From positions 12,623-55,364 of the forward strand of contig JAGQSS010000003.1 of NCBI GenBank assembly GCA_020439405.1: a DNA stretch of 42,742 nucleotides, written 5' to 3'. This document shows positions 12,717 through 33,449 of this stretch, piece after piece. The first letter of the stretch is position 1, and each line of letters opens with the position of its first letter. Under the pieces are notes generated by a model. It ran no database searches. It worked only from the letters and a program-made list of their open reading frames with translations, and was not told where the DNA came from. This DNA is from Ilumatobacter sp. (GTDB lineage Bacteria; Actinomycetota; Acidimicrobiia; Acidimicrobiales; Ilumatobacteraceae). A program made the translations under genes and the position numbers.

Positions 12717-13718
12717 ATGACGGGCCGTCCTCCGAAGTTCAGCGTGCGCCTCTCGAGTGGGGTGCGACCAGAAGCCTTTCGGGACGCTGCGATGGCGGCG
12801 GAGGAGGCCGGATTCGATCAGATCTGGACCGGCAACGACCAGTTCAAGCGGTCCGGTATCGTCCCCGTCGCTCTGGCATTGGACGCCACGTCCCGGATTC
12901 GGGTCGGCTCGAGTGTGCTCAACACGGTCACGCTGCATCCGATCGAGATCGCGTCGTTGGTCGCCAATCTGCAGGATCTCTCGGGCGGTCGGTACCTCCT
13001 CGGGCTCGGTGCGGGGTCCGAGGTGTACCTGCGATGGATCGATGCCGATCTTGCCTCGCCCGTCGAGCGGACCCGACGAGGTCTCCGCATCGTCCGCGCT
13101 CTGCTCGAAGGTCGGAAGGTGAACGAACTCCCCGGAGAGGAGCGCTGGAGCGACAACGCGCGGTTGATCGGCCCTCCGGTCGCGTCGACACCGATCTATG
13201 TCGGCGCCATGGGTCCGCGGATGCTCGCGATGGCGGGACGCGAGGCCGATGGTGTGCTCGCACTCTGTCTGCCTCCGTCGCACGTCGCCTGGGTGCGAGA
13301 TCAGGTCGGCTCCGGTGCGGCCGAAGACAGCGACTTCGATCTCGCGTGCTGCGTGTGGGTCTCGATCGACGAGGATGCGCATGCTGCACGAGAGCGGCTT
13401 CGGCCGAAGATCGCGGCCGCCGGGGGCCACCTGTCGAGCGACGCCTTGCTGCGTGCCGGCATCGACCCGGAACGGTGCGCGCACGTCCAATCGATGTGGG
13501 ACGCCGGCAACGAAGCCGAGGCACTCGCATCCGTCGATGAGTCGATGATGCAGCTGGGTATCGCCGGGGACACCGATCTGGTGATCGAGCAGTGCAGCCG
13601 GCTACTCGGCATCGGCGTCCGCCATTTGTCGTTCGGGCAACCGCTCGGCGAGTCGCCCATCGAGGCGGTCCAACTGTTGGGTTCGCGGGTGCTGCCCGCA
13701 TTAAGAGAGAGGTTCTGA
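12717..13718 (+). CDS. LLM-class flavin/F420-dependent oxidoreductase (paralogue 1)
   Basis: A 333-residue luciferase-like TIM-barrel enzyme. AEEAGFDQIWTGND, LHPIEIASLVANLQDLSGG, YLLGLGAGSEVYL, PIYVGAMGPRMLAMAGREAD and LSFGQPLG mark the fold and active-site region. It could be an F420H2-dependent reductase (methylene-H4MPT reductase-like) or an FMNH2 monooxygenase; the motifs do not decide. It opens the catabolic cluster, four bases before the acyl-CoA-dehydrogenase-like monooxygenase. Its paralogue at 21282 shares many of the same segments. No flavin reductase gene is nearby. Confidence 0.85.
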   Translation: MTGRPPKFSVRLSSGVRPEAFRDAAMAAEEAGFDQIWTGNDQFKRSGIVPVALALDATSRIRVGSSVLNTVTLHPIEIASLVANLQDLSGGRYLLGLGAGSEVYLRWIDADLASPVERTRRGLRIVRALLEGRKVNELPGEERWSDNARLIGPPVASTPIYVGAMGPRMLAMAGREADGVLALCLPPSHVAWVRDQVGSGAAEDSDFDLACCVWVSIDEDAHAARERLRPKIAAAGGHLSSDALLRAGIDPERCAHVQSMWDAGNEAEALASVDESMMQLGIAGDTDLVIEQCSRLLGIGVRHLSFGQPLGESPIEAVQLLGSRVLPALRERF

Positions 13719-13721
13719 GAC

Positions 13722-14918
13722 ATGACCACCACCGAGCGCATCAGCTCGACGACGTGGCCCACGGATCTGCGCGAGCCGACCACGTCGGAGGCGATCCTGC
13801 ACAACGTCCGATCGATCCTGCCGGTCGTGACGACCGAGGCAGCTCCGTCGAACGAGCAGGGGTACATGACTTCGGCCATGACCGAGGCCTGCCGAGCGGC
13901 GGGGATCTTCCGTGTCGGCTTCTCGCGCGAGCGAGGCGGGCCCGAGATGTCGATCTCGGATCAGACCCGGATGGTCGAGATGGTCGCGACCGTTGACGCG
14001 TCGATCGCGTGGAACGTCACCGTGTTGGCCGCCACCGGATTCTATGCGGGACGCCTGTCCGACGGCGCATTCGCCGAGCTGTACCCGGACCTCGACCGGG
14101 CCACGTGTGGGTCGTTCCACCCCAAGGGTGTCGCACGTCAGGTGGAGGGCGGATACCGGGTGAGTGGCAACTGGAACTTCGGCAGCGGGATTCGGTCGTC
14201 CGACCGCATCGTCGCCGGTGCCGAGGTGGTCGACGAAGTGGGCGAGCCCGTGTTGAAGGACGACGGCTCGCAACTGACCCTCGGTGTCTGGCTCCCCACT
14301 GATGATGTACGTCTACGCGACGACTGGCACACGATCGGTCTCCGCGGCTCGGGAAGTCAGGGGTACGCCGTCGACGATGTGTTCGTGCCGGCCGATCACA
14401 GCTTCGACCGCTTCTTCGCCGGCAACGCGACTGCGCCGCCCCTGTCGAAGCACCCCGACCTGCCCTTCTACAGCATGGGCGGTATCTCACTGGGTATCGC
14501 CCGCCACGCGATCGACATCGTGTCGACGGAACTCGCGAAACGTTCGGGTGCGCGCGCACCGGGCGAGCGCAGCTTGGCGCTCCTCGGTGAGGCGGACTCT
14601 TGCCTACGAGCGATGAGGGCGACGATCTACGCGGGCCTGTCACAACTCGACGAGGAGACGTTCACCCCGGGCGCGGTGCCGTCGACCCGCGCGCTCGCGC
14701 GTGGCGACGCTCCGTTCGCCGCCGAACTCGCGCGGCGCGTGCTCGACATCTGCGTCGATCTGTACGGCTCCAAGACGATCTACGAGGTGAATCCGCTCGA
14801 GCAGCTGATCCGAGATCTGGTCGGGCTCAGCGTCCACTTGTCGACTTCTCGTGCGATGTGGTCGCGGGTCGGCCAAGTCGTGCTGGACGAGTACGCGCGA
14901 GACGGGGAGGGGTCATGA
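13722..14918 (+). CDS. acyl-CoA dehydrogenase-like (group D) flavin monooxygenase, paralogue 1
   Basis: A 398-residue protein of the acyl-CoA dehydrogenase fold, of the kind used by two-component monooxygenases (HsaA, DszC and IacA types), which take FMNH2 or FADH2 from a partner reductase. Visible segments are IFRVGFSRERGGPEMSI, ATVDASIAWN, GFYAGRLSDGAFAELYP, CGSFHPKGVA, GGYRVSGNWNFGSGIRSSD and LRGSGSQGYAVDDVFVPADH. The usual catalytic Glu of true dehydrogenases is not apparent. The stop overlaps the next start as ATGA. It probably hydroxylates an aromatic or heteroaromatic ring. Confidence 0.82.
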   Translation: MTTTERISSTTWPTDLREPTTSEAILHNVRSILPVVTTEAAPSNEQGYMTSAMTEACRAAGIFRVGFSRERGGPEMSISDQTRMVEMVATVDASIAWNVTVLAATGFYAGRLSDGAFAELYPDLDRATCGSFHPKGVARQVEGGYRVSGNWNFGSGIRSSDRIVAGAEVVDEVGEPVLKDDGSQLTLGVWLPTDDVRLRDDWHTIGLRGSGSQGYAVDDVFVPADHSFDRFFAGNATAPPLSKHPDLPFYSMGGISLGIARHAIDIVSTELAKRSGARAPGERSLALLGEADSCLRAMRATIYAGLSQLDEETFTPGAVPSTRALARGDAPFAAELARRVLDICVDLYGSKTIYEVNPLEQLIRDLVGLSVHLSTSRAMWSRVGQVVLDEYARDGEGS

Positions 14919-16168
14919 GCCTCACCGACGATCCTGAGTCGTCCTCGACGACCGAGGCGCGGGTCGCGGCGGTCATGGCCCGGCGTCGCCGAGGAGACGA
15001 CGCGCGGCGGGCGTCCGGTCGTGCCGACTGGTCGTCCTGGCCGGAGTACGAGGCAGCCGACAAGGGCCTGCGCGACTACTGGTATCCGGTCGAGTGGTCG
15101 TCCGAGGTCGGCCGGCACCCGGTCGGCGTGCGCGTGTGCGGCGAAGACCTCGTCCTGCAACGCGACGAGCAGGGAACCGTGTACGCGTTGCACGACCGTT
15201 GTCCTCACCGCGGTGTCCCGCTGTCACTCGGCAAGGAGGAGTTCCCGGGAACGGTGACGTGTCCATACCACGCGTGGACGTTCGATCTCGCGAGCGGTGA
15301 ACTCGTCGCAGTGATCACCGACGGTCCGGATTCGCCGATGTGTGGGAAGGCAAACGTCACGACGTACCCGACCGCGGAAGCGGTCGGCTTGGTGTGGGTC
15401 TTCGTCGGCGACCGCGAACCGCACCCGCTCTCGGATCAACTCCCCGAGGAGCTCGTCGACCCGCCCGCCTACGCCGTCGGTGGCCGGATCCAGGATCGTT
15501 CTGGTGACTGGCGCCTGTACGCGGAGAATGGTTTCGACGAGGGCCACGCCAAGTACCTGCACCGCACCAGCTACTGGCGGATCTTCAAGACGATGCCGAC
15601 GTGGAACAAGGTCCACATCGAGCGGCACGGGCGCTGGATCTACCGGATCGAGGACGAGCGGCACTGGGAGGCCGACTTCCCGGGTCTCGGGCGCTGGTCG
15701 AACGACCGATGGTGGAAGATCAAGCCGAAGCAACAGCAGGGCAAGATGTTGGGGAACACGGGAGGCTCCAAGAAGAACGACTCCTACATCGCCGGTCAGG
15801 GACTTCCCGGATTCGCGTCCCTGTCACTGCCGGGTGTGCTCCGCATCGCTTATCCACAGTTCATCCACTACGAGTTCTACGTGCCGATTGAGTCCGGCCG
15901 CACGAAGTACGTCGGTGTGATGGTCCAGTTCAAGACCGGATTCCAGCGGGCCGCCTTCTTCCTCAAGTACCTCGGCGGTATCCGGTGGCTGTTCCACGGC
16001 AACTTCTCCAGCCAGGACCACTGGATGGTCGAACACACCGACGCGCCGCCTGAACGGTTGTATCGCCCCGACATCTCGCTGATCGAGTGGCGTCGCCTCG
16101 TCGAAGAGGGCAACCCGTTCGACCCCGCAAGCGCCGACCACGCCGAGTCGACGGAGGATGGTCGCTGA
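14915..16168 (+). CDS. Rieske non-heme iron oxygenase, alpha subunit
   Basis: A 417-residue ring-hydroxylating oxygenase. The Rieske [2Fe-2S] ligands are Cys96/His98 (CPHRGV) and Cys116/His119 (CPYHAW). The catalytic domain has ENGFDEGHAKYLHR, giving the bridging Asp208 and iron ligands His211 and His216. The length and the single-subunit look fit the alpha-only phenoxybenzoate/KshA-type oxygenases. No ferredoxin, reductase or beta-subunit gene lies in the window, so electrons must come from elsewhere. ATGA overlap upstream and TGATG overlap downstream place it inside the operon. It would mono- or dihydroxylate the ring before cleavage. Confidence 0.93.
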   Translation: MSLTDDPESSSTTEARVAAVMARRRRGDDARRASGRADWSSWPEYEAADKGLRDYWYPVEWSSEVGRHPVGVRVCGEDLVLQRDEQGTVYALHDRCPHRGVPLSLGKEEFPGTVTCPYHAWTFDLASGELVAVITDGPDSPMCGKANVTTYPTAEAVGLVWVFVGDREPHPLSDQLPEELVDPPAYAVGGRIQDRSGDWRLYAENGFDEGHAKYLHRTSYWRIFKTMPTWNKVHIERHGRWIYRIEDERHWEADFPGLGRWSNDRWWKIKPKQQQGKMLGNTGGSKKNDSYIAGQGLPGFASLSLPGVLRIAYPQFIHYEFYVPIESGRTKYVGVMVQFKTGFQRAAFFLKYLGGIRWLFHGNFSSQDHWMVEHTDAPPERLYRPDISLIEWRRLVEEGNPFDPASADHAESTEDGR

Positions 16169-17052
16169 TGCCGGTCGAGATCAGTCCGGAACCTCAGGGC
16201 CGCATCGTCGATGCCGGCGGGCTCGGCTATCACGTGATTGAGATGGGCTCTGGCCCGCCAACGTTCTTCTTGCACGGCGGCGGACCCGGCTGCACCGCGT
16301 GGACGGACTTCGGCCCGGTCGCACCGCTGTTCGCCGCCAACCGCACCTGCTACCTCGTCGATCTCTTGCAGTACGGCAAGTCCGAGAAGTGCACGATCAG
16401 TGGCCCGATGTGGGATTTTCACGCTCGTACCGTGTGCGATCTGATGGACGCGCTCGGCGTGGACCGGGCCGACTTCGTCTGCAACTCCTGGGGAGGCACG
16501 ATCGCCCTCGCCCTGGCCGCGAACTTCCCGGAGCGGACTCGCAGCCTCGTCGTGACGGGTTCGATGCCGGTGTTCCACGGCCCGCTTGCTCCCCTGCCCG
16601 AAGGCGGGCGGCGTGGTCGCAAGGCGCGCGACGCCTACTTCGGCGGTGACGGTCCGTCCTGGGAGAAGATGCGTCAACTAATGGCCGACCTCGAGTGGTA
16701 CGACCCGAGCGAGATCCCAGACGCGACGGTCACGATGCGCTTCGAGCAGTCGGTGGACGTCGACGAGATGGAGCTCGCCGCCCGCTCCGACAGTCCGCGC
16801 GGCGATTGGCAGGACCTCAGCGACGCGCTCGGCCGCATTCGGTGCCCGGTGCTCTTCGCGTGGGGGATGTACGACGACTTCCTGACGCCCGACTACCCGT
16901 TGATGCTTGCCCGGATGGTCGAGCACGGACAGCTGTACGTCATGGACAAGGCGTCTCACCACCTGCAGGAGGAGCGCCCACAGCACTACTACTCGGTCGT
17001 GTCGGGCTTCCTCGACCAGACCGACCGATTCGCACCGGAGGACCATCGCTGA
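16168..17052 (+). CDS. alpha/beta hydrolase, meta-cleavage-product (C-C bond) hydrolase type
   Basis: A 294-residue alpha/beta hydrolase resembling BphD/MhpC. FLHGGGPGCTAW is the oxyanion region with the triple Gly of this subgroup. The nucleophile elbow CNSWGG holds Ser107, with Cys in place of the first Gly. WGMYDDF holds the acid residue and KASHHLQEE the catalytic His. In a meta pathway it would split the ring-opened dienoate into 2-hydroxypenta-2,4-dienoate and an acid. ATG 16168 overlaps the Rieske stop. Three hydrolases of this fold occur in the cluster, so which one acts on the meta product is uncertain. Confidence 0.85.
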   Translation: MPVEISPEPQGRIVDAGGLGYHVIEMGSGPPTFFLHGGGPGCTAWTDFGPVAPLFAANRTCYLVDLLQYGKSEKCTISGPMWDFHARTVCDLMDALGVDRADFVCNSWGGTIALALAANFPERTRSLVVTGSMPVFHGPLAPLPEGGRRGRKARDAYFGGDGPSWEKMRQLMADLEWYDPSEIPDATVTMRFEQSVDVDEMELAARSDSPRGDWQDLSDALGRIRCPVLFAWGMYDDFLTPDYPLMLARMVEHGQLYVMDKASHHLQEERPQHYYSVVSGFLDQTDRFAPEDHR

Positions 17053-17180
17053 TGCGCCGTTTCGCCACCACTTCGACCCTGTTCGCCGTCGTGCTCGCCG
17101 GTGCCGTGCTCTTTCGTTCGCAGTTGGTCCGCCTGCTCACGCGCACGACGGGCACGTGGATCGGCGCGCCGCGTGGCTGA
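17052..17180 (+). CDS. small single-span membrane protein (42 aa), unrecognised
   Basis: A 42-residue frame starts at ATG 17052, overlapping the hydrolase stop (TGATG), and ends inside the start of the next gene (GTG 17173, 8-base overlap). It has a basic start (MRRF), one hydrophobic helix (LFAVVLAGAVLF) and a basic tail (RSQLVRLLTR). The tight overlaps at both ends fit this operon's gene-to-gene style and argue for real translation. I recognise no family. It may be a membrane anchor, a small regulator or a chance frame. Confidence 0.4.
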   Translation: MRRFATTSTLFAVVLAGAVLFRSQLVRLLTRTTGTWIGAPRG

Positions 17181-18483
17181 TCCCGAGGCGATCGTCGCCG
17201 CTGCCGAGGCGGCCGTCGACCGTGACCGTCTCGTCGAGCTGTGCGCGGCGATGGTCGACATCGCCTCACCGACGGGGAACGAGGGTCCGCTCGCTCGCCT
17301 TCTCGCCTCCGAGATGACCGCGTCGGGGCTCGACGGCAGGACCCAGGACCTGACCAAGGGTTCATGGCTGGGAGGCGACATGGCCAACGCCTACGGGCGG
17401 TGGCGTGGTGACGCGTCCGACCGGTCACTGATGCTGTACGCGCCGCTCGACACGGTGACGACGGGCGACCCGGCGGAGGACCTCCCATGGGCAGGACCCA
17501 ACATGCGCGCCGACATGACCCCGGCGGCCGAGACGCGCGACGGGCTGGTGATCGGGCTCGGTGCGCAGAATCCGAAGGGCCATGGTGCATGCGTGTTGGT
17601 CGCCGGTGAGGCGCTCGCGGCAGTCGAGGCACCGCTAGGCGGCGACCTCCTGTTCGGGTTCGGCGCCGGCGGTATGCCCACGAACCGGCGGCGACCGGGC
17701 CTGCATCCTGGCCACGGGGTCGGTTGCGCAGCGCTCGTCGACCTCGTGCAGCCGGACGAAGCGGTCATCGCTAAGACCGGGTGGGCAATCTCGTGGGAGG
17801 AGGTCGGCCTGATGTGGTTCACCGTGGAGGTCGAGGGCGCGCACACGTACGTCGGGAGTCGGCACCTGTTGCCGTATCGGAACGCGATCGCGGATGCCTC
17901 CCACATCGTGAGTGGTCTCGAGCGTTGGTTCCCTACCTGGGCGGAGTCGCACCGCGACGGACTCGTCGCGCCCCAGGGCGTCGTCGCATCGATCGAAGCG
18001 GGGTGGGAGCGGATGGCGGCCTTCACCCCGGCCGTGTGCCGCTTCAGCGTCGATCTCCGCATCAGTCCGCGTACCACTCCGGACGAGGCTGCCCGTGCCT
18101 TCATCTCCGAAGTCGAGCGTCTCGCACGGGAGATCGGGGCGGAGGCGACGTGTTCGGTCGACGTGACGATCCCAGGGACGACGACCTCGCCCTCGTCACC
18201 GATCATCACGTCGGCGATTCGATGCTGGGAAGACCTCGAGGGTCGGGCACATCAGCCGATCGCCGGGTTGTCCGGAGCCACGGACGCGAACATCCTGCGC
18301 TCGCACGGCGTGCCGACCGCTCGAGTCGGTTTGCCGAAGGTGAGTTCCGATCGCCTCGAGGCCGACTTCCAGCTCGGCATGAACGCGGTCGACGTCGATG
18401 ACATGGAGCGCCTCACCAAGTTGTTGATCCGGATTGCCGTCGATCGTCTCGGTGTGGGCGACGGAAGCGGAGTTCGGGCATGA
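17173..18483 (+). CDS. M20-family peptidase/amidohydrolase homologue with missing metal ligands
   Basis: A 436-residue protein with the M20 layout: N-terminal catalytic half, dimerisation insert (WFTVEVEGAHTYVG ... VCRFSVDLRISP) and a C-terminal return (GLSGATDANILRSHGVPTARVG). Zinc ligands look lost: the HxD motif reads PLDTV (residues 91-95), the bridging Asp motif reads GAQNPKGHG (Asn133), and the Glu-Glu pair is replaced by FGAGGMP near 163-169. It may use a different metal set, act non-catalytically, or hydrolyse an amide or lactone another way. GTG 17173 was chosen for the operon overlap; the stop overlaps the next gene as ATGA. Confidence 0.75.
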   Translation: MADPEAIVAAAEAAVDRDRLVELCAAMVDIASPTGNEGPLARLLASEMTASGLDGRTQDLTKGSWLGGDMANAYGRWRGDASDRSLMLYAPLDTVTTGDPAEDLPWAGPNMRADMTPAAETRDGLVIGLGAQNPKGHGACVLVAGEALAAVEAPLGGDLLFGFGAGGMPTNRRRPGLHPGHGVGCAALVDLVQPDEAVIAKTGWAISWEEVGLMWFTVEVEGAHTYVGSRHLLPYRNAIADASHIVSGLERWFPTWAESHRDGLVAPQGVVASIEAGWERMAAFTPAVCRFSVDLRISPRTTPDEAARAFISEVERLAREIGAEATCSVDVTIPGTTTSPSSPIITSAIRCWEDLEGRAHQPIAGLSGATDANILRSHGVPTARVGLPKVSSDRLEADFQLGMNAVDVDDMERLTKLLIRIAVDRLGVGDGSGVRA

Positions 18484-19469
18484 GCTCGATCGTGATCGGC
18501 GCGGCGGCGTCGCACACGACCTTGATGAACACGAAGTGGGACGAGGTCGACCACCTCAGGCGTGCCCACCGGTACCGCGACGCGCTCGCGGTCGCCCGCG
18601 AGCGGATCTCGGCGGCCCATCCCGACCTAGTGGTCATCGTCGGCTCGAACCACTTCCGAGGGTTCTGGCTCGATCTCATGCCCGCCTTCACGATCGGGGT
18701 CGATCGAGTCGTCGCTGCCGGCGAACACGGAACGCCGTCCGGTCCACAGCGGACGGATCCATCGGCCGCACTCGCGCTGTGCCAGAGCTTGCTCGACCGT
18801 GACATCGACGTTGCGTTCTCGACCGACCTGCAGGTCGATCACGGGGTCTCCCATGCGATCCAGTACCTCGTCCCCGAGGGACTTCCCGTGGTTCCGCTGA
18901 TCGTCAACGTCTTCGGGCCGCCGCTGCCGAGCCTGACGCGTTGTCTCGCCGTCGGCGAGGCGCTCCGTCGCGCGGCGGCCGGCCTCGCCGGCGGCCGACG
19001 GGTCGCGGTCATCGGAACCGGTGGGCTGTCCCACGCCGTGCCGTTTCCCGACTGGCGCGATCCCGTCGGTGACGACGAGGAATTCCTGGCGCGTAGCTTC
19101 CGCGAAGGTCGCGGCCGTTGGGAGGAGTTCGAGTCGCGTCGTCGCCCAATCGTCACGGGCGCCACCCCGCGACTGAACGAGGACTTCGACCGTGAGGTAC
19201 TCGACCTGCTCGCTCGTGGCCGACTGTCTGTGCTCGCCGAGAGCTACACGACCGAGTCGCTCGTCGCGAGCGCCGGAAACGGTGCCAACGAGGTCCGCGC
19301 CTGGATGCTGACGGCCGCCGCCCTCGGCCATTGCCCGGGTGAGGCGCTCGCGTACTCGCCGATGCCCGAGTGGCTCACGGGCATGGCCGTCGCCGTGATC
19401 GAGCCCGACGTCGGCGCCGCCGCGTCGTCACCCCACCCGCCCCATCCCACCCAGGAGGAATCCATATGA
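18480..19469 (+). CDS. class III extradiol ring-cleavage dioxygenase (LigB/MhpB type)
   Basis: A 329-residue Fe(II) dioxygenase that opens a catechol-like ring next to its hydroxyl groups. GAAASHTTLM gives an iron-ligand His near residue 12 and VGSNHFRGFW another. QVDHGVSHAIQYL and GTGGLSHAVPFPDW hold the two His that correspond to the catalytic acid/base pair of LigB/MhpB. It overlaps the M20-like gene before it and the hydrolase after it (both ATGA), so it is central to the operon. With the downstream hydratase, aldolase and dehydrogenase it defines a meta-cleavage pathway. The substrate is not known. Confidence 0.9.
   Translation: MSSIVIGAAASHTTLMNTKWDEVDHLRRAHRYRDALAVARERISAAHPDLVVIVGSNHFRGFWLDLMPAFTIGVDRVVAAGEHGTPSGPQRTDPSAALALCQSLLDRDIDVAFSTDLQVDHGVSHAIQYLVPEGLPVVPLIVNVFGPPLPSLTRCLAVGEALRRAAAGLAGGRRVAVIGTGGLSHAVPFPDWRDPVGDDEEFLARSFREGRGRWEEFESRRRPIVTGATPRLNEDFDREVLDLLARGRLSVLAESYTTESLVASAGNGANEVRAWMLTAAALGHCPGEALAYSPMPEWLTGMAVAVIEPDVGAAASSPHPPHPTQEESI
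19453..19458 (+). promoter_or_regulatory. perfect AGGAGG ribosome binding site
   Basis: AGGAGG lies seven bases before ATG 19466, inside the 3' end of the dioxygenase gene. It is the strongest ribosome binding site I see in the cluster and fixes the start of the following hydrolase. It suggests that this hydrolase is translated more strongly than neighbours that rely on stop-start coupling alone. Confidence 0.75.
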
Positions 19470-20326
19470 GCATCTGGACCGATCTCACTGGCCTGTCGTT
19501 TTCCGTCGACTTCGTCGACGCCGGCGGCGTGCCGACGCGTGCACTGACGGCCGGACCTCTCGACGGTCCGCCGGTCGTCTTCCTGCATGGCACGAGCGGA
19601 CATCTCGAAGCGTTCAGCCGAAACATCGGCCCGCACGTCGCGGCCGGGTTTCGCTGTCATGCCATCGACATGCTCGGCCACGGATACACCGGCAAGCCCG
19701 ACTACCAGTACGAGATCCCGCGATACGTCGAGCATCTTGTCGCGTATCTGGACGCACAGGGCATCGGTGCCGCCCATCTCGTCGGGGAGTCACTCGGCGG
19801 CTGGGTCGCCGGTTGGCTGGCGAGTGAACAACCCGACCGTGTCGCCAGCCTGCAGCTGGTGGCGGCAGGTGGGACCAAGGCGAATCCCGAAGTGATGAAC
19901 CGCATCAAGACGTCGACCACGAAGGCGGTGACGGAGGACGACATCGATCTGACGCGGCAGCGCCTGCACCTGCTGATGTACGATGGCGAGAAGGACGTCA
20001 GTGAGGAACTCGTCGAGATCCGGCACGCGATCTATCACCATCCGGACTTCGTCTCGAACCTGCACAACCTGCTCTGCCTCCAGGAAATGGAGATTCGCCA
20101 ACGCAACCTGATGCGGCCGGAACGCCTCGCGGCGATCGACGTGCCGACCATGATCGTGTGGGGCAACGAGAATCCGTTCGGCGAGGTGCCCGAGGCCACC
20201 GCGATGCACGAGACGATCGAGGGCTCCCGTCTCGAACTTGTCGGCAAGTGCGGCCACTGGCCGCAGCACGAACAAGCGGATTGGTTCAACCCGGTCAGCA
20301 TCGGGTTCATCGAGGCGAACCTGTGA
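19466..20326 (+). CDS. alpha/beta hydrolase, probable meta-cleavage-product hydrolase
   Basis: A 286-residue hydrolase. VVFLHGTSGHLEAF is the oxyanion region, LVGESLGGWVAGWLA the nucleophile elbow (Ser), and GKCGHWPQHEQ holds the catalytic His. The acid position in VWGNENPF reads Asn where Asp is usual, though a neighbouring Glu could serve. The early DAGGVPTRAL and late GHWPQHEQADWFN are typical of C-C hydrolases. It directly follows the ring-cleaving dioxygenase by ATGA overlap, which makes it the best candidate for hydrolysing the ring-opened product. Confidence 0.85.
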   Translation: MSIWTDLTGLSFSVDFVDAGGVPTRALTAGPLDGPPVVFLHGTSGHLEAFSRNIGPHVAAGFRCHAIDMLGHGYTGKPDYQYEIPRYVEHLVAYLDAQGIGAAHLVGESLGGWVAGWLASEQPDRVASLQLVAAGGTKANPEVMNRIKTSTTKAVTEDDIDLTRQRLHLLMYDGEKDVSEELVEIRHAIYHHPDFVSNLHNLLCLQEMEIRQRNLMRPERLAAIDVPTMIVWGNENPFGEVPEATAMHETIEGSRLELVGKCGHWPQHEQADWFNPVSIGFIEANL

Positions 20327-21114
20327 CTGACGGGCGTCCCCGACGCTCGTACGTCGACGCACCGCACGGCCAGATCCACGTTGCCGAGGCGGGTTCGGGG
20401 ACGCCACTGATCCTGATCCATCAGACACCTCGATCGTCCGACGAGTTCCGCGAGGTCATGGGCCTGTTGTCGTCGCAGGTCCGCACCGTCGCATTCGACC
20501 TGCCGGGAATGGGCGCGTCGGACCCATTGCCGGCACCACCGTCGATCGAGGAGTATGCGGCGGCGGCCCTGCACGTGGCCGACGCGCTCGGTCTCGACAG
20601 TTTCCATATCTGTGGGCATCACACGGGTGGCGTCGTCGCGGTCGAGGTGGCGGCGCACGCCCCTGATCGAGTTCGATCGATCGCGTTGTCGTCGACGCCG
20701 TGGATCGACGGCTCGGCCCGTCGGGCGCGTGCGTCGGCCCCGCCCCCGGTCGACGTCGCGACGCATCGTCCGGATGGTGGGCACCTCATTGATCTGTGGA
20801 ACCAGCGTCGGCCCTACTACCCGATGGGACACGAACTCCTCGACCGGTATCTCGCCGACGCGTTGCGAGCGTCCAGCACGGAAGAGGGACATCGCGCGGT
20901 CGGCCGCTATGCGATGGACGAGCGTTGCCGCTCGGTTCGCTGCCCGGTTCTCGTGATCGAACATGCCGGCGACCCGTTCGCAAGCAAGCACACCGATGCT
21001 CTCGTCGCCGGATTCCGGCCCGTATCGGTCGTTCTCGTGGAGGACGGTCGGATCCCGCTCGAGCACGGTGCCGTCGCGGTCGCCCGAGCACTCGCCGACT
21101 TTGTCGGTCGTTGA
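20323..21114 (+). CDS. alpha/beta-fold hydrolase-like protein with His at the nucleophile position
   Basis: A 263-residue alpha/beta-fold protein. LILIHQTPRSSDEF replaces the usual HGxPG oxyanion region. The elbow reads CGHHTGGVVAVEVA: in G-x-Nu-x-G, position 100 is His rather than Ser, Asp or Cys. EHAGDPFAS lies at the acid position and EDGRIPLEHG at the His position. GHHTG elbows occur in a subset of actinobacterial and proteobacterial homologues of unclear reaction. It may do cofactor-free chemistry or decarboxylation rather than ester hydrolysis. It starts at GTG overlapping the previous stop (GTGA). Confidence 0.75.
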   Translation: MTDGRPRRSYVDAPHGQIHVAEAGSGTPLILIHQTPRSSDEFREVMGLLSSQVRTVAFDLPGMGASDPLPAPPSIEEYAAAALHVADALGLDSFHICGHHTGGVVAVEVAAHAPDRVRSIALSSTPWIDGSARRARASAPPPVDVATHRPDGGHLIDLWNQRRPYYPMGHELLDRYLADALRASSTEEGHRAVGRYAMDERCRSVRCPVLVIEHAGDPFASKHTDALVAGFRPVSVVLVEDGRIPLEHGAVAVARALADFVGR

Positions 21115-21281: not shown

Positions 21282-22289
21282 ATGCGTTTCAGCGTTCGAG
21301 CCGGAATGGGAGGGGGGCCTCGGGCGGCGGCAGCTCGAGCCGTCGCCGCGGAAGAGGCGGGATTCGATCAGATCTGGACCGGGAACGACTTTCTCGGTCG
21401 ATCGGGGTTGATCAGTCTCGCGGCGGCCTCGCTGGCGACCTCCCGAATCGAACTCGGTGTCGGCGTCGTCGACCCGATCACGCTGCACCCGGGTCAGATC
21501 GCGTCGATCGCGACCGAACTTCAGGAGCTCTCCGAGGGTCGGTTCCTGCTCGGAATCGGCGCAGGCTCGGACGTGTTCTTCGGACGTGCAGGGCTCACAC
21601 CTCCCTCGCCGGTGACGCGGACCCGGGAGGCGGTCGCCGCGATCAAAGTGTTGCTGCGGGGTGAGTCGCCCGCGGACGAACCGCTCGCGGCAGACGGTTG
21701 GGCGCCCGGAGCGGTACTCGAGCACGTCGCCACCGTCCCGCCGCCCGTGTACGTCGGCGCGATGGGTCCCAAGATGCTGGCACTCGCTGGGCGGCTCGCC
21801 GATGGTGCGCTCCCGCTCTGCCTGCCTCCGTCCCGGTTCGCCCGCGCTCGTTCGTTGATCCAGGGCGGAGCAGCGGCGCACGATCGGGTGCTCGACGATT
21901 TCGACCTCGTTGCGTGCATCTGGTGTTCGATCGATGACGACGCTGACCGCGCACGGCTCCATCTCGCTCGACACATCGCGCAATACAGCGGTTCGCTCTC
22001 GCCCGACGCGCTCGCCGAGGAAGACCTCGATCCCGACGAGTTCCAGATGGTGCAGCGCGTCGTCCTCGACGAGGGTCTCGACGCCGGCGCCAGGGCGGTC
22101 ACGCCGAGCATGCTGACCCTCGGCGTCGCCGGCGGGCCTGACGATGTCCTCGAACAGATCGCCACGCTGGCCGAACAAGGTGTCGAGCACCTCTCGTTCG
22201 GTCCGCCGATGGGGCCCGATCTGGGCGACGCCCTCCACGTTCTCGGCACCAAGGTCTTTCCCGAGGCGCGACGGATGCTCGACTCCTGA
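21282..22289 (+). CDS. LLM-class flavin/F420-dependent oxidoreductase (paralogue 2)
   Basis: A 335-residue luciferase-like enzyme, clearly paralogous to the gene at 12717: both have AEEAGFDQIWTGND, an LHP..IAS stretch, a GAGS segment, YVGAMGPKMLALAGRLADG, CLPPS and a LSFG..P ending. It starts a new block after a 167-base gap, the largest within the operon. GACAAT (21270-21275) six bases before ATG could be a -10 box for a leaderless start, but no good -35 box is present. Like paralogue 1 it could reduce or oxygenate a ring intermediate; the cofactor is undecided. Confidence 0.85.
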   Translation: MRFSVRAGMGGGPRAAAARAVAAEEAGFDQIWTGNDFLGRSGLISLAAASLATSRIELGVGVVDPITLHPGQIASIATELQELSEGRFLLGIGAGSDVFFGRAGLTPPSPVTRTREAVAAIKVLLRGESPADEPLAADGWAPGAVLEHVATVPPPVYVGAMGPKMLALAGRLADGALPLCLPPSRFARARSLIQGGAAAHDRVLDDFDLVACIWCSIDDDADRARLHLARHIAQYSGSLSPDALAEEDLDPDEFQMVQRVVLDEGLDAGARAVTPSMLTLGVAGGPDDVLEQIATLAEQGVEHLSFGPPMGPDLGDALHVLGTKVFPEARRMLDS

Positions 22290-26010: not shown

Positions 26011-26756
26011 TGTCCGATCGCATCGCCTTCGTCGCCGGCGCCAGCGGCAGCCTCGGCCCGACCTTGTGCCGATCGTTGGCCGCGGAGGGATTCTCGGTCG
26101 TCGCGCACGCGCACTCGAATGGTGGCGCCGTCGACGGGATCGTCGACAGCCTCGACGGTGATCATCTCGCCGTCGTCGGAGAACTTGCGTCCGACGACGG
26201 GCCGTCGGAGCCTGTGTCCAGAGCGATCGAACGGTTCGGCCGTGTCGACGTACTCGTCAACGCCGCACACCCGCCGTGGCGGTCGGCGGCACAGGTCGCC
26301 GACCTGTCGCTCGGCGATCTGAGTGATCAGCTCACCGGCGTCGTCACGCACGCCGCCGTGTGCCGTGATGTGCTTCCCTCGATGCGTTCAAGTGGTGGCG
26401 GACGGATCGTCTTCGTGGCGGGCGCACTGATGCGGCGCCCGGCAGCCGGCTTCTCCGCGTACGGCGCCGCCAAGGCGGCCGCAGCGACGCTCACGCGATA
26501 CATCGCGCTGGAGGAGGGCCGGTACGGCATCACGGCGAACATCGTCGCGCCGGGTCGGATCGTCGACCCGAACGAACCCGAGGACATCCCCCCCGACAAG
26601 CAACAACTCGCCGAGGAACTCCGGCGACGCCTCGCCCTCGGTGCCTTCCCGTCGCCCGACGACGTAGCCAACACGATCGTCTCCCTCGTTCGGCACGAGG
26701 GGCGAGCCCTGACGGGGCAGACGGTCTGGGTCACCGGTGGTGAACCGATCGAGTGA
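26010..26756 (+). CDS. short-chain dehydrogenase/reductase-like protein
   Basis: A 248-residue Rossmann-fold SDR. AGASGSLG is the nucleotide-binding glycine motif, VLVNAAHPPW corresponds to the NNAG strand, YGAAKAA holds Tyr and Lys of the active site, and IVAPGRIVDPNEP follows. The catalytic Ser, expected 13 residues before the Tyr, appears to be Gly (VAGALMRRPAAGFSAY), so it may be a weak or altered reductase. It overlaps the ATPase stop (TGATG). A role oxidising or reducing a pathway alcohol or ketone is plausible from context. Confidence 0.85.
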   Translation: MSDRIAFVAGASGSLGPTLCRSLAAEGFSVVAHAHSNGGAVDGIVDSLDGDHLAVVGELASDDGPSEPVSRAIERFGRVDVLVNAAHPPWRSAAQVADLSLGDLSDQLTGVVTHAAVCRDVLPSMRSSGGGRIVFVAGALMRRPAAGFSAYGAAKAAAATLTRYIALEEGRYGITANIVAPGRIVDPNEPEDIPPDKQQLAEELRRRLALGAFPSPDDVANTIVSLVRHEGRALTGQTVWVTGGEPIE

Positions 26757-26796
26757 ACGATTCCCGAACCCCGAGCCGACGCCACAGGAGCACATT

Positions 26797-28056
26797 ATGA
26801 GCCCAGCAGACACCACGACCGACGACGCGACCTTCGACAGGGTCGAGTTGAAGGAACCGACGAGCGCCGATGCGGTGATCTACAACACGCGCGCGCTGGC
26901 CGGACTGATCGCGGAGGAAGCCGACGCGATCGAAGAGGTCGCGAAACTGACCGACCGGGCGGCGCTCGCCATGCGGCGGGCCGGTGTGTTCGAGATGGGC
27001 TTCCCGGCCTCCCGTGGTGGACTCGAGATGACGCTCGAACAGCAAGTCCAGGTCGTCGCCGAGATCGCAGCGGTCGATGCGTCCGCGGGATGGAACGTCG
27101 GCGTCCTCAACGCGGGCGGCTTTTACGCCGGCCGGCTGTCGGAGCAGACCTTCGCCGAGCTCTACCCGACCACCGACCGTCCGACGAGTGGTTCCTTCCA
27201 TCCTCGTGGCCGAGCGGTCCAGACCGATGGCGGCTATCTCGTCTCCGGGCACTGGGACTGGGGCAGCGGCAGCTACACCGCCGATCACGTGGTGGGGGGC
27301 TGCCTCGTGTTCGACGCGGACGGCGCCGAGGTCATCGGGAGCAACGGTCAGCAGATGCTGATCGGCGCGTGGCTTCCGCCGGAGGCCATCGAACCGCTGG
27401 ACAACTGGCAAACGCTCGGCGTGTGCGGCTCGGGGAGTACCTCGTACCGGATCACGGAGCCGGCGTTCGTCCCCGTCGAGCACACGTTCGATCGCGAGGC
27501 GCCGTTCGATCCGGACGCCGATCCGCTCAACAAGACGGTCACGGCGTGTCACTACGCGTTGAGTGGTGTCGTGCTCGGGATCGCTCGCCACGCGGTCAAT
27601 CTCGCCGGGGAGGCGGTCCGTGTCAAAGGGAGCGCTCGCGGGCCCGACAGCGCGACGCTCCAGATGCTCGGCCAGGCGATCGGCGAGGTCGACTTCGCCT
27701 ACTCCGGTGTGCGCGAGATCGCGCGGATGAGCGACGAGATCCTATTCACCGACGGTGCCGTGATGACACCGTGGCAGCAGGCTCGCATGACAGCGGCGAA
27801 CGCGACCGCAGCCAATGCGCTCCGTCGAGTGCTTCCGGTGTGCACCGAACTGGCCGGTTCGCGCCACATCATGGACGATCATCCGATGCAGCGGGTGCTG
27901 CGCGACGGCAACTCGGCGCTGGCCCACGCCGGAGCGAAGCAAATGTTGTTCGCCTTCCACGCGCAAGCGCTGGTCGACGACTCGACGACCGGATTCACGA
28001 TCGGGGATGATCCCGTCGACGCCGGCTTCCGGTCGATGCGCCGGTGGAGCGTCTGA
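26797..28056 (+). CDS. acyl-CoA dehydrogenase-like (group D) flavin monooxygenase, paralogue 2
   Basis: A 419-residue paralogue of the gene at 13722, sharing GFYAGRLSEQTFAELYP, GSFHPRGRA, GGYLVSGHWDWGSGS, CGSGSTSYRI and GIARHA. Both belong with two-component monooxygenases rather than true acyl-CoA dehydrogenases. CAGGAG six bases before ATG 26797 fixes the start. It lies between the SDR gene and two small TIGR04076 genes and overlaps the first of these by TGATG. It may oxidise a later or different intermediate from paralogue 1. No flavin reductase is present in the window. Confidence 0.82.
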   Translation: MSPADTTTDDATFDRVELKEPTSADAVIYNTRALAGLIAEEADAIEEVAKLTDRAALAMRRAGVFEMGFPASRGGLEMTLEQQVQVVAEIAAVDASAGWNVGVLNAGGFYAGRLSEQTFAELYPTTDRPTSGSFHPRGRAVQTDGGYLVSGHWDWGSGSYTADHVVGGCLVFDADGAEVIGSNGQQMLIGAWLPPEAIEPLDNWQTLGVCGSGSTSYRITEPAFVPVEHTFDREAPFDPDADPLNKTVTACHYALSGVVLGIARHAVNLAGEAVRVKGSARGPDSATLQMLGQAIGEVDFAYSGVREIARMSDEILFTDGAVMTPWQQARMTAANATAANALRRVLPVCTELAGSRHIMDDHPMQRVLRDGNSALAHAGAKQMLFAFHAQALVDDSTTGFTIGDDPVDAGFRSMRRWSV

Positions 28057-29586: not shown

Positions 29587-30656
29587 GCACGACCCAGCGG
29601 GTCGACCCGGTCGCGGCGCTGGCGCGCGTTCGCGGGTACGTGGCGGGCCGGACCGCGACCGGTGGGCAGACGGCGATCAAGTTGTCGTCGAACGAGCTGG
29701 CGTTCGGGCCGTTGCCGTCCGTCGAGCGAGCGCTCACTGCCGCGATCGGTGACGTCAACCGGTATCCCCTGCCGCGCGCCGAGGATCTCCAGGCGAGCCT
29801 CGCCGCCGTGCTCGACGTCGCTGTCGACGAGGTGGCCGTCGGAGCAGGATCATCTGGCCTCTTGTGGCAGCTGATCGCGGCGTTCGTCGAACCCGGGGAC
29901 CGGATCGTCCTCCACACGCCGAACTTCGAGGCCTACCCGATCGCGGCGGGGCTCGCGAGCGCGCCAACGATCGACGTGCCGCTCGTCGACTGCACGAGCG
30001 ACGTCGACCGATTGATCGACGCCGTCGACGATCACACGAAGCTCGTGGTCCTCACGAATCCGCACAACCCGACCGGCACCGCGGTCGGGGCTCGCGAGAT
30101 CGGACACCTGGTCGACGCGGTCGCCGACCGAGCGTTGGTACTGCTCGACGAGGCGTACATCGAGTTCGCCGGCGGTCCGGGCGCGGACCACTGGTGGCGC
30201 CGGCACCCCAACGTCGTCGTGCTGCGGACCTTCTCGAAGGCGTACGGTCTCGCCGCCTTGCGCGTGGGGTACGCACTCGCCGATCCTGCCGTCGTGTCTG
30301 CTCTCGGCCTAACCGCGCCCCCGTTCACCGTCAGCCGGCTTGCCAGCGCTGCCGCCGAAGCGTCGCTCGCGGCATCAGCGGAACTCGCTGAGCGTGTCGA
30401 GTCCGTCTGCTCGGAACGCGACCGTGTGACCAACCGGCTGCGAGCGCTCGGCGTGGGTGTTCCCGAGAGTGCCGCCAACTTCGTGTTCCTCCCGGCCGCC
30501 GACATTCCCGACACCTTCGTCGATGATCTCGAGCGGGCCGGTGTTCTCGTCCGCCCGATCGGCTCACTCGGCGTGCGAGTCACCGTCGGCACCGTTCCGG
30601 AGAACGACCGGTTCCTCCAGGAATGCGCGACGATCTTGGGTGACGGCGCACGATGA
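29583..30656 (+). CDS. HisC-like PLP aminotransferase (histidinol-phosphate/aromatic type)
   Basis: A 357-residue fold-type I aminotransferase. IKLSSNELAFGPLPSVERAL and NRYPLPRAEDLQASLA are typical HisC starts. NPHNPTGT, LLDEAYIEF, then FSKAYGLAALRVGY (with the PLP Lys in FSK) and GVRVTVGTVPENDRFL complete the core. Actinobacterial relatives include phenylalanine and aromatic aminotransferases as well as HisC. Its place between ABM and the meta-pathway hydratase, away from any histidine genes, points to transamination of a pathway amino acid or its aromatic keto acid. It is ATGA-coupled on both sides. Confidence 0.88.
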   Translation: MSTTQRVDPVAALARVRGYVAGRTATGGQTAIKLSSNELAFGPLPSVERALTAAIGDVNRYPLPRAEDLQASLAAVLDVAVDEVAVGAGSSGLLWQLIAAFVEPGDRIVLHTPNFEAYPIAAGLASAPTIDVPLVDCTSDVDRLIDAVDDHTKLVVLTNPHNPTGTAVGAREIGHLVDAVADRALVLLDEAYIEFAGGPGADHWWRRHPNVVVLRTFSKAYGLAALRVGYALADPAVVSALGLTAPPFTVSRLASAAAEASLAASAELAERVESVCSERDRVTNRLRALGVGVPESAANFVFLPAADIPDTFVDDLERAGVLVRPIGSLGVRVTVGTVPENDRFLQECATILGDGAR

Positions 30657-31468
30657 GCGTGGTGCCGACCTCGTCGATCGAGCGGGCGGCCGCACGCCTG
30701 CTCCACGCTGCCCGAACACGCACGCCCTGCACACCGGTTCGTGATCTGATCGGGTCGACGAATCTCCGCGCCGCCTACGCGGTACAAGCTCGGCTGACCG
30801 AGGAACGGCTTGCCTCCGGCAGCACGGCGGTTGGACGCAAAATCGGCCTCACGTCACCCGCCGTACAGGAGCAGCTCGGCGTGTCGCAACCGGATCTCGG
30901 CGTCTTGTTCGACGACATGATGATTGTCGACGGGACGACGGTCGACGCAAGAACCTTTCTGCAACCTCGCGTCGAGGCCGAGATCGCCTTCGTGCTCGGT
31001 GACGACCTCGTAAGCGGTCCGCTCGATCGATCCCAGATCCGCGGAGCGCTCGATCACGCGGTCGCCGCCATCGAGATCTGCGACAGTCGCGTCGCAGCGT
31101 GGGACATCACGTTCGGCGACACGGTCGCGGACAACGCCTCTGCCGGAGCGTTCGTATTGGGCGTTGCCCCCCGCTCACTCGCCGACTTCGACCCGGTCGC
31201 GGCGACGATGTCGATGACCATCGACGGCGCCGAAGCGTCCACCGGAAGCGGAGCAGCGTGCCTCGGGGATCCACTCGAAGCGGTCGCATGGCTCGCGCGC
31301 AACTCGCGCGAGCTCGGGGAGCCTCTCCGAGCCGGCGAGATCGTGCTCTCGGGTGCCCTCGGCCCGATGAGGCCGGTCGCAGCCGGCGCCCACGTCACGG
31401 CAGACATCACGGGGCTCGGAACCGTCTCCGTGCGATTCGGTACGACGAAGGAAGGAGACGGCTCGTGA
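30653..31468 (+). CDS. mhpD: 2-hydroxypenta-2,4-dienoate hydratase (2-keto-4-pentenoate hydratase)
   Basis: A 271-residue hydratase/decarboxylase-family enzyme (MhpD/BphH/XylJ type). It adds water to 2-hydroxypenta-2,4-dienoate to give 4-hydroxy-2-oxovalerate. [36 protein letters not shown], the metal-site region [13 protein letters not shown], then [23 protein letters not shown] and [12 protein letters not shown] are characteristic. The order hydratase, dehydrogenase, aldolase in the next genes is the classic lower meta pathway. ATGA overlap precedes it and GTGA follows. Confidence 0.92.
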
Positions 31469-32430
31469 GCGAACGCACGAAAGTGGCGATCATCGGGTCC
31501 GGCAACATCGGGACCGATCTGATGATCAAGGTGATGCGCACTTCCCGTCACCTCGAGATGGGGGCGATGGTCGGTATCGATCCGGCATCCGACGGACTCG
31601 CGCGAGCGAGTCGGATGGGCGTCGCAACGACGTCCGACGGGATCGACGGACTGCTGTCGCTCGACGTCTTCGACGACATCGCACTGGTCTTCGATGCCAC
31701 GTCCGCCGGGGCCCACGAAGTCAACGCCGCGAAGCTCGAGCCATTCGGCAAGCGTCTCATCGACCTCACGCCGGCGGCACTCGGACCGTACGTCGTTCCG
31801 GTCGTCAACCTGGCCGACCATCTCGATGCGCCCAACCTCAACATGGTGACCTGCGGTGGGCAGGCAACGATCCCGATCGTCGCCGCGATCAACACGGTCG
31901 CACCGGTCGCCTACGCCGAGATCGTCGCTTCGATCGCGTCCCGGTCGGCCGGTCCGGGCACCCGCGCCAACATCGACGAGTTCACCGAGACGACCGCCCG
32001 CGCCATCGTGGAAGTCGGCGGCGCCGGCCGCGGCAAGGCGATCATCGTCCTCAACCCGGCCGAGCCACCACTCATCATGCGCGACACCGTGCTGTGCCTG
32101 ATCCGCGCCGCCGACGGCGACGTCGCCGGTCCGATTCGCGATGCGGTCGACCGGATGGTCGCCGACGTCGCCGAGTACGTGCCCGGCTACCGGCTCAAGC
32201 AGCAGGTGCAGATCGCCGAGATCCCGTCCGATCAGCCGATCGAGACCCTGCTCCCGGCCGGATCGAGCCGACCAACGCATCAGGTGTCAGTGTTCGTCGA
32301 GGTCGAGGGAGCAGCCCACTACCTGCCTGCCTATGCAGGGAACCTCGACATCATGACGTCGGCCGCGTTACGGGTCGCCGAGGAGATCGCAGAGCGAGAG
32401 CTCAGCCGAGTGGGAGAGCTCTCGTCATGA
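31465..32430 (+). CDS. mhpF: acetaldehyde dehydrogenase, acylating
   Basis: A 321-residue enzyme that oxidises acetaldehyde to acetyl-CoA with NAD+ and Co[18 protein letters not shown] is the NAD-binding motif; [17 protein letters not shown] holds the catalytic Cys; [16 protein letters not shown] and [13 protein letters not shown] are family segments. It works as a complex with the aldolase encoded next, which channels acetaldehyde to it. GTG 31465 overlaps the hydratase stop, with GAAGGAG eight bases upstream. The order matches bphHJI, mhpDFE and hsaEGF operons. Confidence 0.95.
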
Positions 32431-33449
32431 CGGAGTTGTTCATTCAGGACGTCACCTTGCGCGACGGAATGCACGCCATTCGTCACCGCCTCGATCCGGC
32501 CGACGTCCGACGCATCGTCCTCGCGCTCGATGCCGCCGGAGTCGACGCGATCGAGGTCGCCCACGGCGACGGGCTGGCGGGAGGATCGCTCACGTACGGT
32601 CCGGGTTCCCACACCGACTGGCAGTGGATCGAGGCCGCAGCCGAGGTGATCGAGCACGCCCGGCTGACGACGCTCCTGTTGCCGGGCGTCGGCACGATCG
32701 ACAGCCTGCGACGCGCCTACGACCTCGGGGTCCGGTCGGTACGGGTCGCCACCCACTGCACCGAAGCCGACGTCTCGGCACAGCACATCGCCTCCGCTCG
32801 AGAAATGGAGATGGACGTCGCCGGGTTCCTGATGCTCTCGCACATGGCGCCGGCCGAGGAGCTGGCGCGACAAGCCGCGCTCATGGAGTCGTATGGAGCC
32901 CACTGCGTCTACGTGACCGACTCCGGTGGCCGGCTGACGATGGCCGATGTCGCCGACCGGGTGCGCCGCTATCGGGATGTGCTCGACGCCGACACCGAGA
33001 TCGGCATCCACGCGCACGAGAACCTATCGCTGTCGGTCGCCAACTCAGTGGTCGCGGTCGAGCACGGTGTGACGCGCGTCGACGCATCACTCGCCGGCCA
33101 GGGCGCCGGCGCGGGCAACTGCCCGATCGAGGCGTTCGTCGCCGTCGCCGATCTCTACGGTTGGAAGCATCGATGCGACCTGTTCGCACTCCAAGACGCC
33201 GCCGACGATCTGGTACGCCCCCTTCAGGATCGGCCGGTACGCGTCGACCGCGAGACGCTCACACTCGGCTATGCGGGTGTGTACTCGAGCTTCCTCCGGC
33301 ACGCCGAGGCCGCTGCCGACCGCTACAGCGTGGACGTGCGTCAGATCCTGATGGAGTGCGGCCGACGCAGTCTCGTCGGCGGCCAAGAAGACATGATCGT
33401 CGACATCGCGCTGGACCTTGCCGAGGTGACGCCTGGGCGCGACCGGTGA
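32427..33449 (+). CDS. mhpE: 4-hydroxy-2-oxovalerate aldolase
   Basis: A 340-residue class II pyruvate aldolase (DmpG/BphI type) splitting 4-hydroxy-2-oxovalerate into pyruvate and acetaldehyde. [15 protein letters not shown] carries the catalytic Arg-Asp of the HMGL-like barrel, [16 protein letters not shown] the metal-binding His-x-His, and the C-terminal communication domain ([20 protein letters not shown]) contacts the dehydrogenase. It ends the pathway in central metabolites. ATG 32427 overlaps the dehydrogenase stop. A hairpin follows the stop codon. Confidence 0.95.

Follow-up and report, generated by a model that had tools for sequence, protein, structure and literature searches.

Histidine at the nucleophile elbow in a group of bacterial alpha/beta-hydrolase-fold proteins, including one encoded in a putative meta-cleavage gene cluster of Ilumatobacter

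The gene and its predicted product

A stretch of 42,742 nucleotides from contig JAGQSS010000003.1 of Ilumatobacter sp. (assembly GCA_020439405.1, positions 12,623 to 55,364), referred to here at its full length as the window, carries a gene designated ABH3-His, whose product has the alpha/beta-hydrolase (ABH) fold and histidine at the nucleophile elbow. It is the last of six genes encoding, in order, a Rieske oxygenase, the ABH-fold protein ABH1, an M20-family metallohydrolase, a LigB-family extradiol dioxygenase, a second ABH-fold protein (ABH2) and ABH3-His itself (Table 1). An earlier, sequence-only reading had placed three alpha/beta-fold genes in a row; this was mistaken, as M20 and LigB stand between ABH1 and ABH2. 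The GTG start codon of ABH3-His overlaps the TGA stop codon of ABH2 by four bases. On the opposite strand, an antisense open frame of 343 amino acids (window 20035-21066, minus strand) outranked the real gene in a naive gene call and is probably a by-product of high G+C content.

Both profile and model place ABH3-His in the ABH fold. PF00561 matches at 65.6 bits against a cut-off of 25.8 (Pfam), and a predicted structure (AlphaFold2, built from six input sequences, among which was no second His-elbow protein) resembles many ABH structures about equally well, with a top Z of 27.3 to 1zoi (Foldseek, VIA); the alignment to the meta-cleavage-product hydrolase CarC (1j1i; Z 25.8, rmsd 1.9 Å over 203 residues) is one of many that tie. 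Assignment to a more specific family is not obtained: of 27 NCBIfam matches, the 25 listed all fall below their cut-offs (best listed 72.9 bits against 390), including those for the meta-cleavage-product hydrolases HsaD (41.4 against 400 bits) and BphD (26.6 against 462.15 bits). The mean pLDDT of the model is 72.6, with ten-residue blocks between residues 11 and 120 at 85-96 and an unreliable lid (129-195, below 50). The protein is thus an ABH-fold member, but by the residues or cut-offs that characterise those classes it lies outside the triad hydrolases, the meta-cleavage-product hydrolases and the HOD-type dioxygenases.

Active-site positions and their conservation

The translation reads ICGHHTGG at residues 96-103 and LIHQTPRSS at residues 31-39. 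In the model, residue 100 lies at the turn between a strand (94-99) and a helix (101-112), that is, at the elbow, where none of the usual Ser, Asp or Cys is found, and the acid after strand 7 is present as Asp217. Elbows could be read in 28 of the 31 PF00561 matches of the same genome, a background chosen without the group profile described below, and comprised 19 Ser, six Asp, two Cys and a single His, that of ABH3-His; of the three left out, one was a further fragment of another gene, one gave no readable elbow and one was not fetched. Two homologues in other genomes (53% and 52% identical) share both GHHTG and HQTPRS. An alignment was assembled of 76 unique homologous domains with at least 180 aligned residues each, and column 100 is His in 50 of them and Ser, Asp or Ala in the other 26 (23, two and one, respectively), a proportion that is not a population frequency, the set having been gathered with a profile of the group's own members. 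Given these relatives, the elbow His is neither a chance occurrence nor a sequencing error; it is the trait of a group and no one-off, and the original placement of His at residue 100 of a GHHTG elbow is confirmed.

Among the 50 His-elbow domains, the elbow is GHHTG in 18, GVHTG in ten, GFHTG in seven, GYHTG in five, GSHTG in four and GTHTG in two, with GQHTG, GIHTG, GHHYG and GFHSG found once each. Asp59, Ser66 and an acid at position 217 (Asp or Glu) are each present in 50 of 50, while His33 (49/50), His19 (49/50, with one gap) and Thr101 (48/50) are nearly invariant, and position 190 is occupied by His (19) or Tyr (31). Two of these positions are not particular to the group. Ser66 corresponds to Ser in 22 of the 26 comparison proteins and is thus part of the fold motif GxGxS, and His33, the His that the 'HG' motif ordinarily conserves, is likewise found in 21 of the 26. 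The oxyanion region HQTPRSS named in the sequence-only reading is correct as sequence, with its departures confined to Gln34 and the residues after it.

The usual triad His is also missing from most of the group. A survey of 40 ABH families, in the portion available, places the catalytic base on the loop after strand 8 (PMC7034887). In ABH3-His, residues 242-245 of this loop are Gly-Arg-Ile-Pro, with Arg243-Ile244 at the usual place and no His. This stretch can be aligned in 43 of the 50 His-elbow members, the other seven not aligning there; His occurs within the strict site (242-245) in seven of the 43, compared with 24 of 25 comparison proteins, and within a wider stretch (240-247) in 13 of the 43, again compared with 24 of 25. 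The earlier judgement that a classical esterase mechanism is unlikely is thereby strengthened beyond the grounds first given for it, as the strand-8 His is missing in addition to the elbow nucleophile and both traits hold for most of the group.

Distribution of the His-elbow group

These proteins are termed here the 'HTG' group, defined by a G-x-H-T-G elbow and by clustering with the other His-elbow domains in a tree made with the elbow columns masked, and ABH3-His belongs to it on both counts. HTG proteins were found in Actinomycetota and on alphaproteobacterial plasmids, plasmid records being the sole route to phyla outside Actinomycetota. With ABH3-His as query, 10 of 298 genomes of the order match at E 1e-20, and the best match of each has a G-x-H-T-G elbow. 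A profile of 13 sequences (A1), among which identity to the window protein falls to 26%, matches 24 of 396 genomes across the phylum at E 1e-30, seven of them with a His-elbow protein and the rest with Ser or Asp, and 12 of 394 genomes of another class at E 1e-38, 11 with a His elbow and one (G867) with GRATG. Scores against A1 range from 122 to 362 bits in His-elbow domains, a range that includes the 13 sequences from which A1 was built; all but one (L043, 122 bits) reach at least 141 bits, compared with 166 bits for the Ala-elbow domain L067 and at most 133 bits for domains with Ser or Asp. A tblastn search of plasmids with ABH3-His retrieved five records, all GHHTG, from Rhodococcus, Streptomyces, Shinella and two Novosphingobium, and five further Novosphingobium plasmid loci carry GHHTG (two), GVHTG, GSHTG and GTHTG.

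Scans of viral contigs with profiles A2 and A1 yielded 32 and 29 pattern matches, none of them a relative, and one genome-contig scan returned three ordinary Ser-elbow ABH proteins and no His-elbow member. In the PDB, the best match of A1 scores 97.6 bits. The elbow residue is Asp or Ser in the five alignments shown, and matches of similar kinds were obtained when a single GVHTG protein served as query. Many database proteins with such elbows are named simply 'alpha/beta hydrolase', as are the His-elbow proteins annotated in four of the plasmid records.

Several arrangements of these genes were observed along the way. Two His-elbow domains (GTHTG followed by GSHTG) occur in tandem within one frame of approximately 555-570 amino acids in two genomes (L077/L078 in G1007; L071/L079 in G740), so the group includes fused doublets. 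In family f56, all seven loci (L015-L021) carry two different His-elbow genes back to back and divergent, one GFHTG and the other GVHTG or GIHTG. Four places on the Novosphingobium resinovorum plasmid pSA1 (NZ_CP017076.1), which is typed as conjugative, match the Shinella member; the two that were read (L032 and L134) have GHHTG and GVHTG elbows, and the GHHTG gene adjoins isochorismatase, PEP-mutase/ICL-like and SDR genes.

Origin of the elbow His

In a tree constructed with the elbow and strand-8 loop masked, the His label requires three changes, compared with a mean of 21.8 after shuffling, and none of 500 shuffles is as low. The Ala-elbow domain L067 is nested within the His-elbow domains at a fork with support 98/91. 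A tree constrained to hold the 50 His-elbow domains and L067 together as a single clade is not rejected, its likelihood being 0.71 higher (p-AU 0.536). These results fit a single gain of the elbow His followed by one later loss, though they do not prove it. Judged from sequence, the HTG group is a distinct bacterial branch of the ABH fold, in which the nucleophile has been replaced by His, the acid has been kept and the usual triad His has mostly gone.

The gene cluster and its recurrence

From its sequence matches, we interpret the surrounding cluster as encoding a meta-cleavage pathway that includes the lower steps (Table 1). Among solved structures, the Rieske protein scores 157.8 bits to CarAa and 121 bits to 2-oxoquinoline 8-monooxygenase, and the LigB protein scores 131.5 bits to the MhpB-like structure 8k04, with an NCBIfam score of 185.1 bits that is below the cut-off of 286. 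The Rieske and LigB matches would fit either an N-heteroaromatic or an aryl-propionate-like compound and do not decide between them. The ring-cleavage setting first suggested for ABH3-His stands in part: such a cluster is present and recurs near relatives, while the consecutive placing of the ABH genes falls away, and the further suggestions of action on a ring-opened product and of independence from a cofactor are inferences.

Table 1. Features of the window, with positions numbered from its first nucleotide.
Feature	Position	Strand	Remarks
LLM oxidoreductase	12717-13718
Flavin monooxygenase, acyl-CoA dehydrogenase fold, HsaA-like	13722-14918	+
Rieske oxygenase	14915..16168	+	start approximate; nearest solved structures CarAa, then 2-oxoquinoline 8-monooxygenase
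ABH1, HsaD/BphD-like	16168..17052	+	elbow CNSWG
M20/ArgE-DapE-like metallohydrolase	17170..18483	+	start uncertain
LigB-family extradiol dioxygenase	18480..19469	+	MhpB-like
ABH2, weakly HsaD/BphD-like	19466..20326	+	Ser elbow GESLG
ABH3-His, alpha/beta-hydrolase fold, His at elbow	20323..21114	+	263 aa, GTG start
His33 codon (oxyanion-loop HQTPRS)	20419..20421	+	His in 49/50 His-elbow members
Elbow G98-H99-H100-T101-G102	20614..20628	+	from translation
His100 codon (nucleophile position)	20620..20622	+	from translation and model
His190 codon (lid)	20890..20892	+	His/Tyr in 50/50 His-elbow members
Asp217 codon (acid after strand 7)	20971..20973	+	Asp/Glu in 50/50 His-elbow members
Loop after strand 8, G242-R-I-P-L (usual triad-His site)	21046..21060	+	nearest His is 248
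Second LLM oxidoreductase	21282-22289
Cupin; solute-binding protein with permease- and ATPase-like genes; SDR			in this order after second LLM gene; permease- and ATPase-like genes assigned by reading the sequence
Second flavin monooxygenase, acyl-CoA dehydrogenase fold	26737-28056	+	after SDR, before aminotransferase
Aminotransferase			between second flavin monooxygenase and FAA-family gene
FAA-hydrolase-family protein	30653..31468	+	2-hydroxypentadienoate hydratase-like, by setting
Acetaldehyde dehydrogenase	31099..32430	+	start uncertain
HMGL/DmpG aldolase	32094..33449	+	start uncertain

Two flavin monooxygenases flank the cluster and two LLM oxidoreductases adjoin it. The window also holds two small adjacent frames (window 28044-28358 and 28355-28648, plus strand) that look alike by eye; a Pfam scan of the first, the only one of the pair scanned, gave no match.

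The order Rieske-ABH1-M20-LigB-ABH2-ABH3 is shared by the window and two loci, L022 and L023, from two other families of the order. Identities to the window proteins are 74-79% for ABH1 and ABH2 (74-75% for ABH2), 51-59% for M20 and LigB and 52-53% for ABH3. The L023 cluster is intact, and the Rieske gene of L022 matches in two pieces only. These cover residues 27-98 and 353-403 of the window protein and lie side by side (L022:5274-5647), reflecting either an internal deletion or an assembly fault.

A wider comparison covered 37 other loci with context, the stretches available being 8.7-20 kb long, so that absence from them is no proof; a partner (Rieske, ABH1, M20, LigB or ABH2) was counted at 45% identity or more over at least 50 residues. 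ABH3-His belongs to a subclade of 13 domains with support 99/86. At least one partner is present at seven of the 12 other subclade loci, compared with none of the 25 loci outside the subclade. At an eighth subclade locus (G729), homologues of all five partners are on the same contig approximately 13-19 kb away, ABH1 at only 40% identity, bringing subclade members with partners beside them or on the contig to nine of 13, window included. In another class, four of 394 genomes carry this LigB (E 1e-75), and all four are among the five with a subclade member (Fisher p 5e-9, kinship ignored). Within the order, an ABH2 homologue is present in five of 298 genomes, three of them with a His-elbow partner; in one of the other two (G098), the contig breaks off within ABH2, with M20 and LigB in their usual places before it.

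Proposed mechanism and alternatives

With the nucleophile gone, the usual His absent from 36 of the 43 alignable members and the acid kept, the simplest reading is that the catalytic imidazole now comes from the elbow. The side chain of His100, being longer than that of Ser, would extend to where the missing triad imidazole would have lain, and there Asp217 would orient it or pair with it, and His100 would then act as a general base, or as a base and acid. The backbone amides of the elbow and the His33-Gln34 loop could bind an oxyanion or enolate. Such a site would work non-covalently and without a cofactor, catalysing perhaps a tautomerization, a C-C lyase reaction, a decarboxylation or the attack of activated water on a reactive carbonyl; the candidate substrate is a small enol(ate) or keto acid arising in the linked meta-cleavage pathway. 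As the cluster already encodes two Ser-elbow proteins resembling C-C hydrolases, ABH3-His is more likely to differ from them in activity than to provide the same activity a third time. The sequence pattern, the grouping on the tree, the elbow position in the model and the recurring neighbourhood are observed; the mechanism built on them is inferred. That the elbow His and Asp217 form a general base for chemistry of this kind on a pathway compound is put forward tentatively, as a proposal with somewhat less than an even chance of being correct. A broader version holds that the catalytic His moved from the strand-8 loop to the elbow, giving a family whose active site pairs an elbow His with Asp/Glu and lacks a classical nucleophile, and that the window subclade catalyses a step of aromatic breakdown that is non-hydrolytic or non-covalent; this is held to be slightly less likely again. 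Although labelled hydrolases in databases, HTG proteins probably perform other chemistry.

A number of observations weigh against the general-base proposal. Seven His-elbow members retain a His at the strict strand-8 site, two of them (L036 and L060) within the subclade of ABH3-His itself and the remaining five, by reading of the listed stretches, GYHTG proteins; if the stretch examined is widened to 236-254, His is present in 22 of 43 (24 of 25 comparison proteins). ABH3-His has a His of its own near the usual site, His248, which could serve as the base in the window protein; it is not conserved, the column being most commonly Glu (15/50), with His in five of 50 and Ala in the two closest relatives. 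The part of the model that contains Asp217 and the strand-8 loop (211-250) has a pLDDT of only 61-77. In the tree, the Ser-elbow domain L057 falls beside the His-elbow domains, albeit on a long and weakly placed branch, and a clade of the 50 His-elbow domains alone gives p-AU 0.058. The Ala-elbow protein (L067/L098, G867; GRATG) retains His33, Asp59, Ser66, Tyr190 and Asp217, so with the rest conserved the elbow His appears dispensable in at least one lineage. As for the cluster, four of the 13 subclade loci (L028, L029, L030 and L083) have no partner in the stretch read, and an end-truncated ABH2 homologue in G214 is followed by no His-elbow gene in the next 4 kb. The 25 loci outside the subclade show no partner, and the linkage is therefore silent on the wider group.

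In the foremost alternative, His100 itself would be the nucleophile, forming an N-acyl (or N-alkyl) imidazole resolved by water, and the protein would be a His-nucleophile hydrolase. Engineered His-nucleophile esterases exist. His100 occupies the attack position of Ser, Asp or Cys, Thr follows it in 48 of 50 members, the acid is kept and the genes around it are hydrolase-like; in this one protein, the base could come from His248. The 36 of 43 alignable members without a His at the usual place would lack that base, however, and the available part of a 2024 ABH classification names Ser, Asp, Cys and Ser-less enzymes and no His (PMC11878206). A His nucleophile is hence considered rather unlikely. 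It is also unlikely that the protein is a non-catalytic or regulatory member whose pocket binds a pathway compound, comparable to inactive ABH proteins such as DPP10 as described in literature available in part. The absence of both classical catalytic groups and the Ala-elbow relative L067 would agree with this, but simple loss of function would not preserve one new residue, and Asp59, Ser66 and Asp/Glu217 are kept in 50 of 50 members, at identities to the window protein down to 26% among the 13 sequences of A1.

A metal site in the GHHTG subclade, formed by His99, His100, His190 and other histidines, is distinctly improbable. Of the 19 GHH domains, 15 have His190 and 16 have His154, but the remaining 31 domains carry another residue at position 99, Tyr occupies position 190 in 31 of 50, and only His19, His33 and His100 are nearly invariant among the positions tabulated. 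Histidines at 99 and 190 are both absent from 27 domains, both present in 15 and present singly in four and four, and only three pairs are independent on the tree, too few for the association to be judged. Least probable by far is a conventional Ser hydrolase whose elbow is shifted, the outcome that the sequence-only reading had named as its own refutation: the invariant Ser66 (50/50) might suggest it, but that position is the GxGxS Ser of most comparison proteins, residues 98-102 contain no Ser and residue 100 lies at the turn in the model, and the candidate was rejected.

Relation to known systems

The ABH fold is among the largest enzyme folds, and its literature, in the portions available, builds on one acid-base-nucleophile arrangement. 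A whole group that combines an elbow His with, in most members, no His at the usual strand-8 site would represent a different arrangement of the active site and, if the proposal is correct, a further way for the fold to gain new chemistry beside swapped and lost nucleophiles. The step catalysed by the window subclade would then be one currently labelled hydrolysis, and the linked operon narrows the search for its substrate. A literature search for a His-elbow ABH group, or for His replacing the nucleophile, found no description among titles and the beginnings of abstracts, subscription papers being mostly outside its scope; the strings GHHTG and GXHTG were not found among the matches listed, and a search for quinoline/8-hydroxycoumarin clusters found no paper.

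Meta-cleavage-product hydrolases (MhpC, BphD, CarC and HsaD; PF00561) resemble ABH3-His in fold, strand-7 acid and gene setting, but have a Ser elbow, whereas ABH3-His has a His elbow and lacks the usual strand-8 His. ABH hydroxynitrile lyases share the fold and, according to partly available sources, perform non-hydrolytic chemistry; they have both the elbow Ser and the usual His. Unusual elbow residues are also found in the ABH epoxide hydrolases (Asp) and dienelactone hydrolase (Cys), which share the fold; in contrast to ABH3-His, these have D-D/E-H and C-D-H triads, with the His kept and a carboxylate or thiol as nucleophile, as outlined in the accessible part of a classification (PMC11878206).

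The nearest mechanistic precedent is that of HOD and AqdC, cofactor-free dioxygenases of the ABH fold that exemplify a His-Asp general base acting without a nucleophile; the reaction typical of HOD-type enzymes is the O2-dependent ring cleavage of a 3-hydroxy-4-oxoquinoline. In HOD, a His-Asp pair deprotonates the substrate and the Ser is non-essential, and in AqdC the elbow is naturally Ala, according to the available portion of the source (PMC10548524). ABH3-His, which has no His in 242-245, does not have a dyad of this type built on a triad His in the usual position. In the same partly available account, the His of these enzymes (His251 in HOD) lies elsewhere than the elbow, which is Ser or Ala, whereas in ABH3-His the His is at the elbow itself. 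By analogy, HTG proteins may work as HOD does, through a His-acid pair and without a nucleophile, with the His supplied from another place in the fold.

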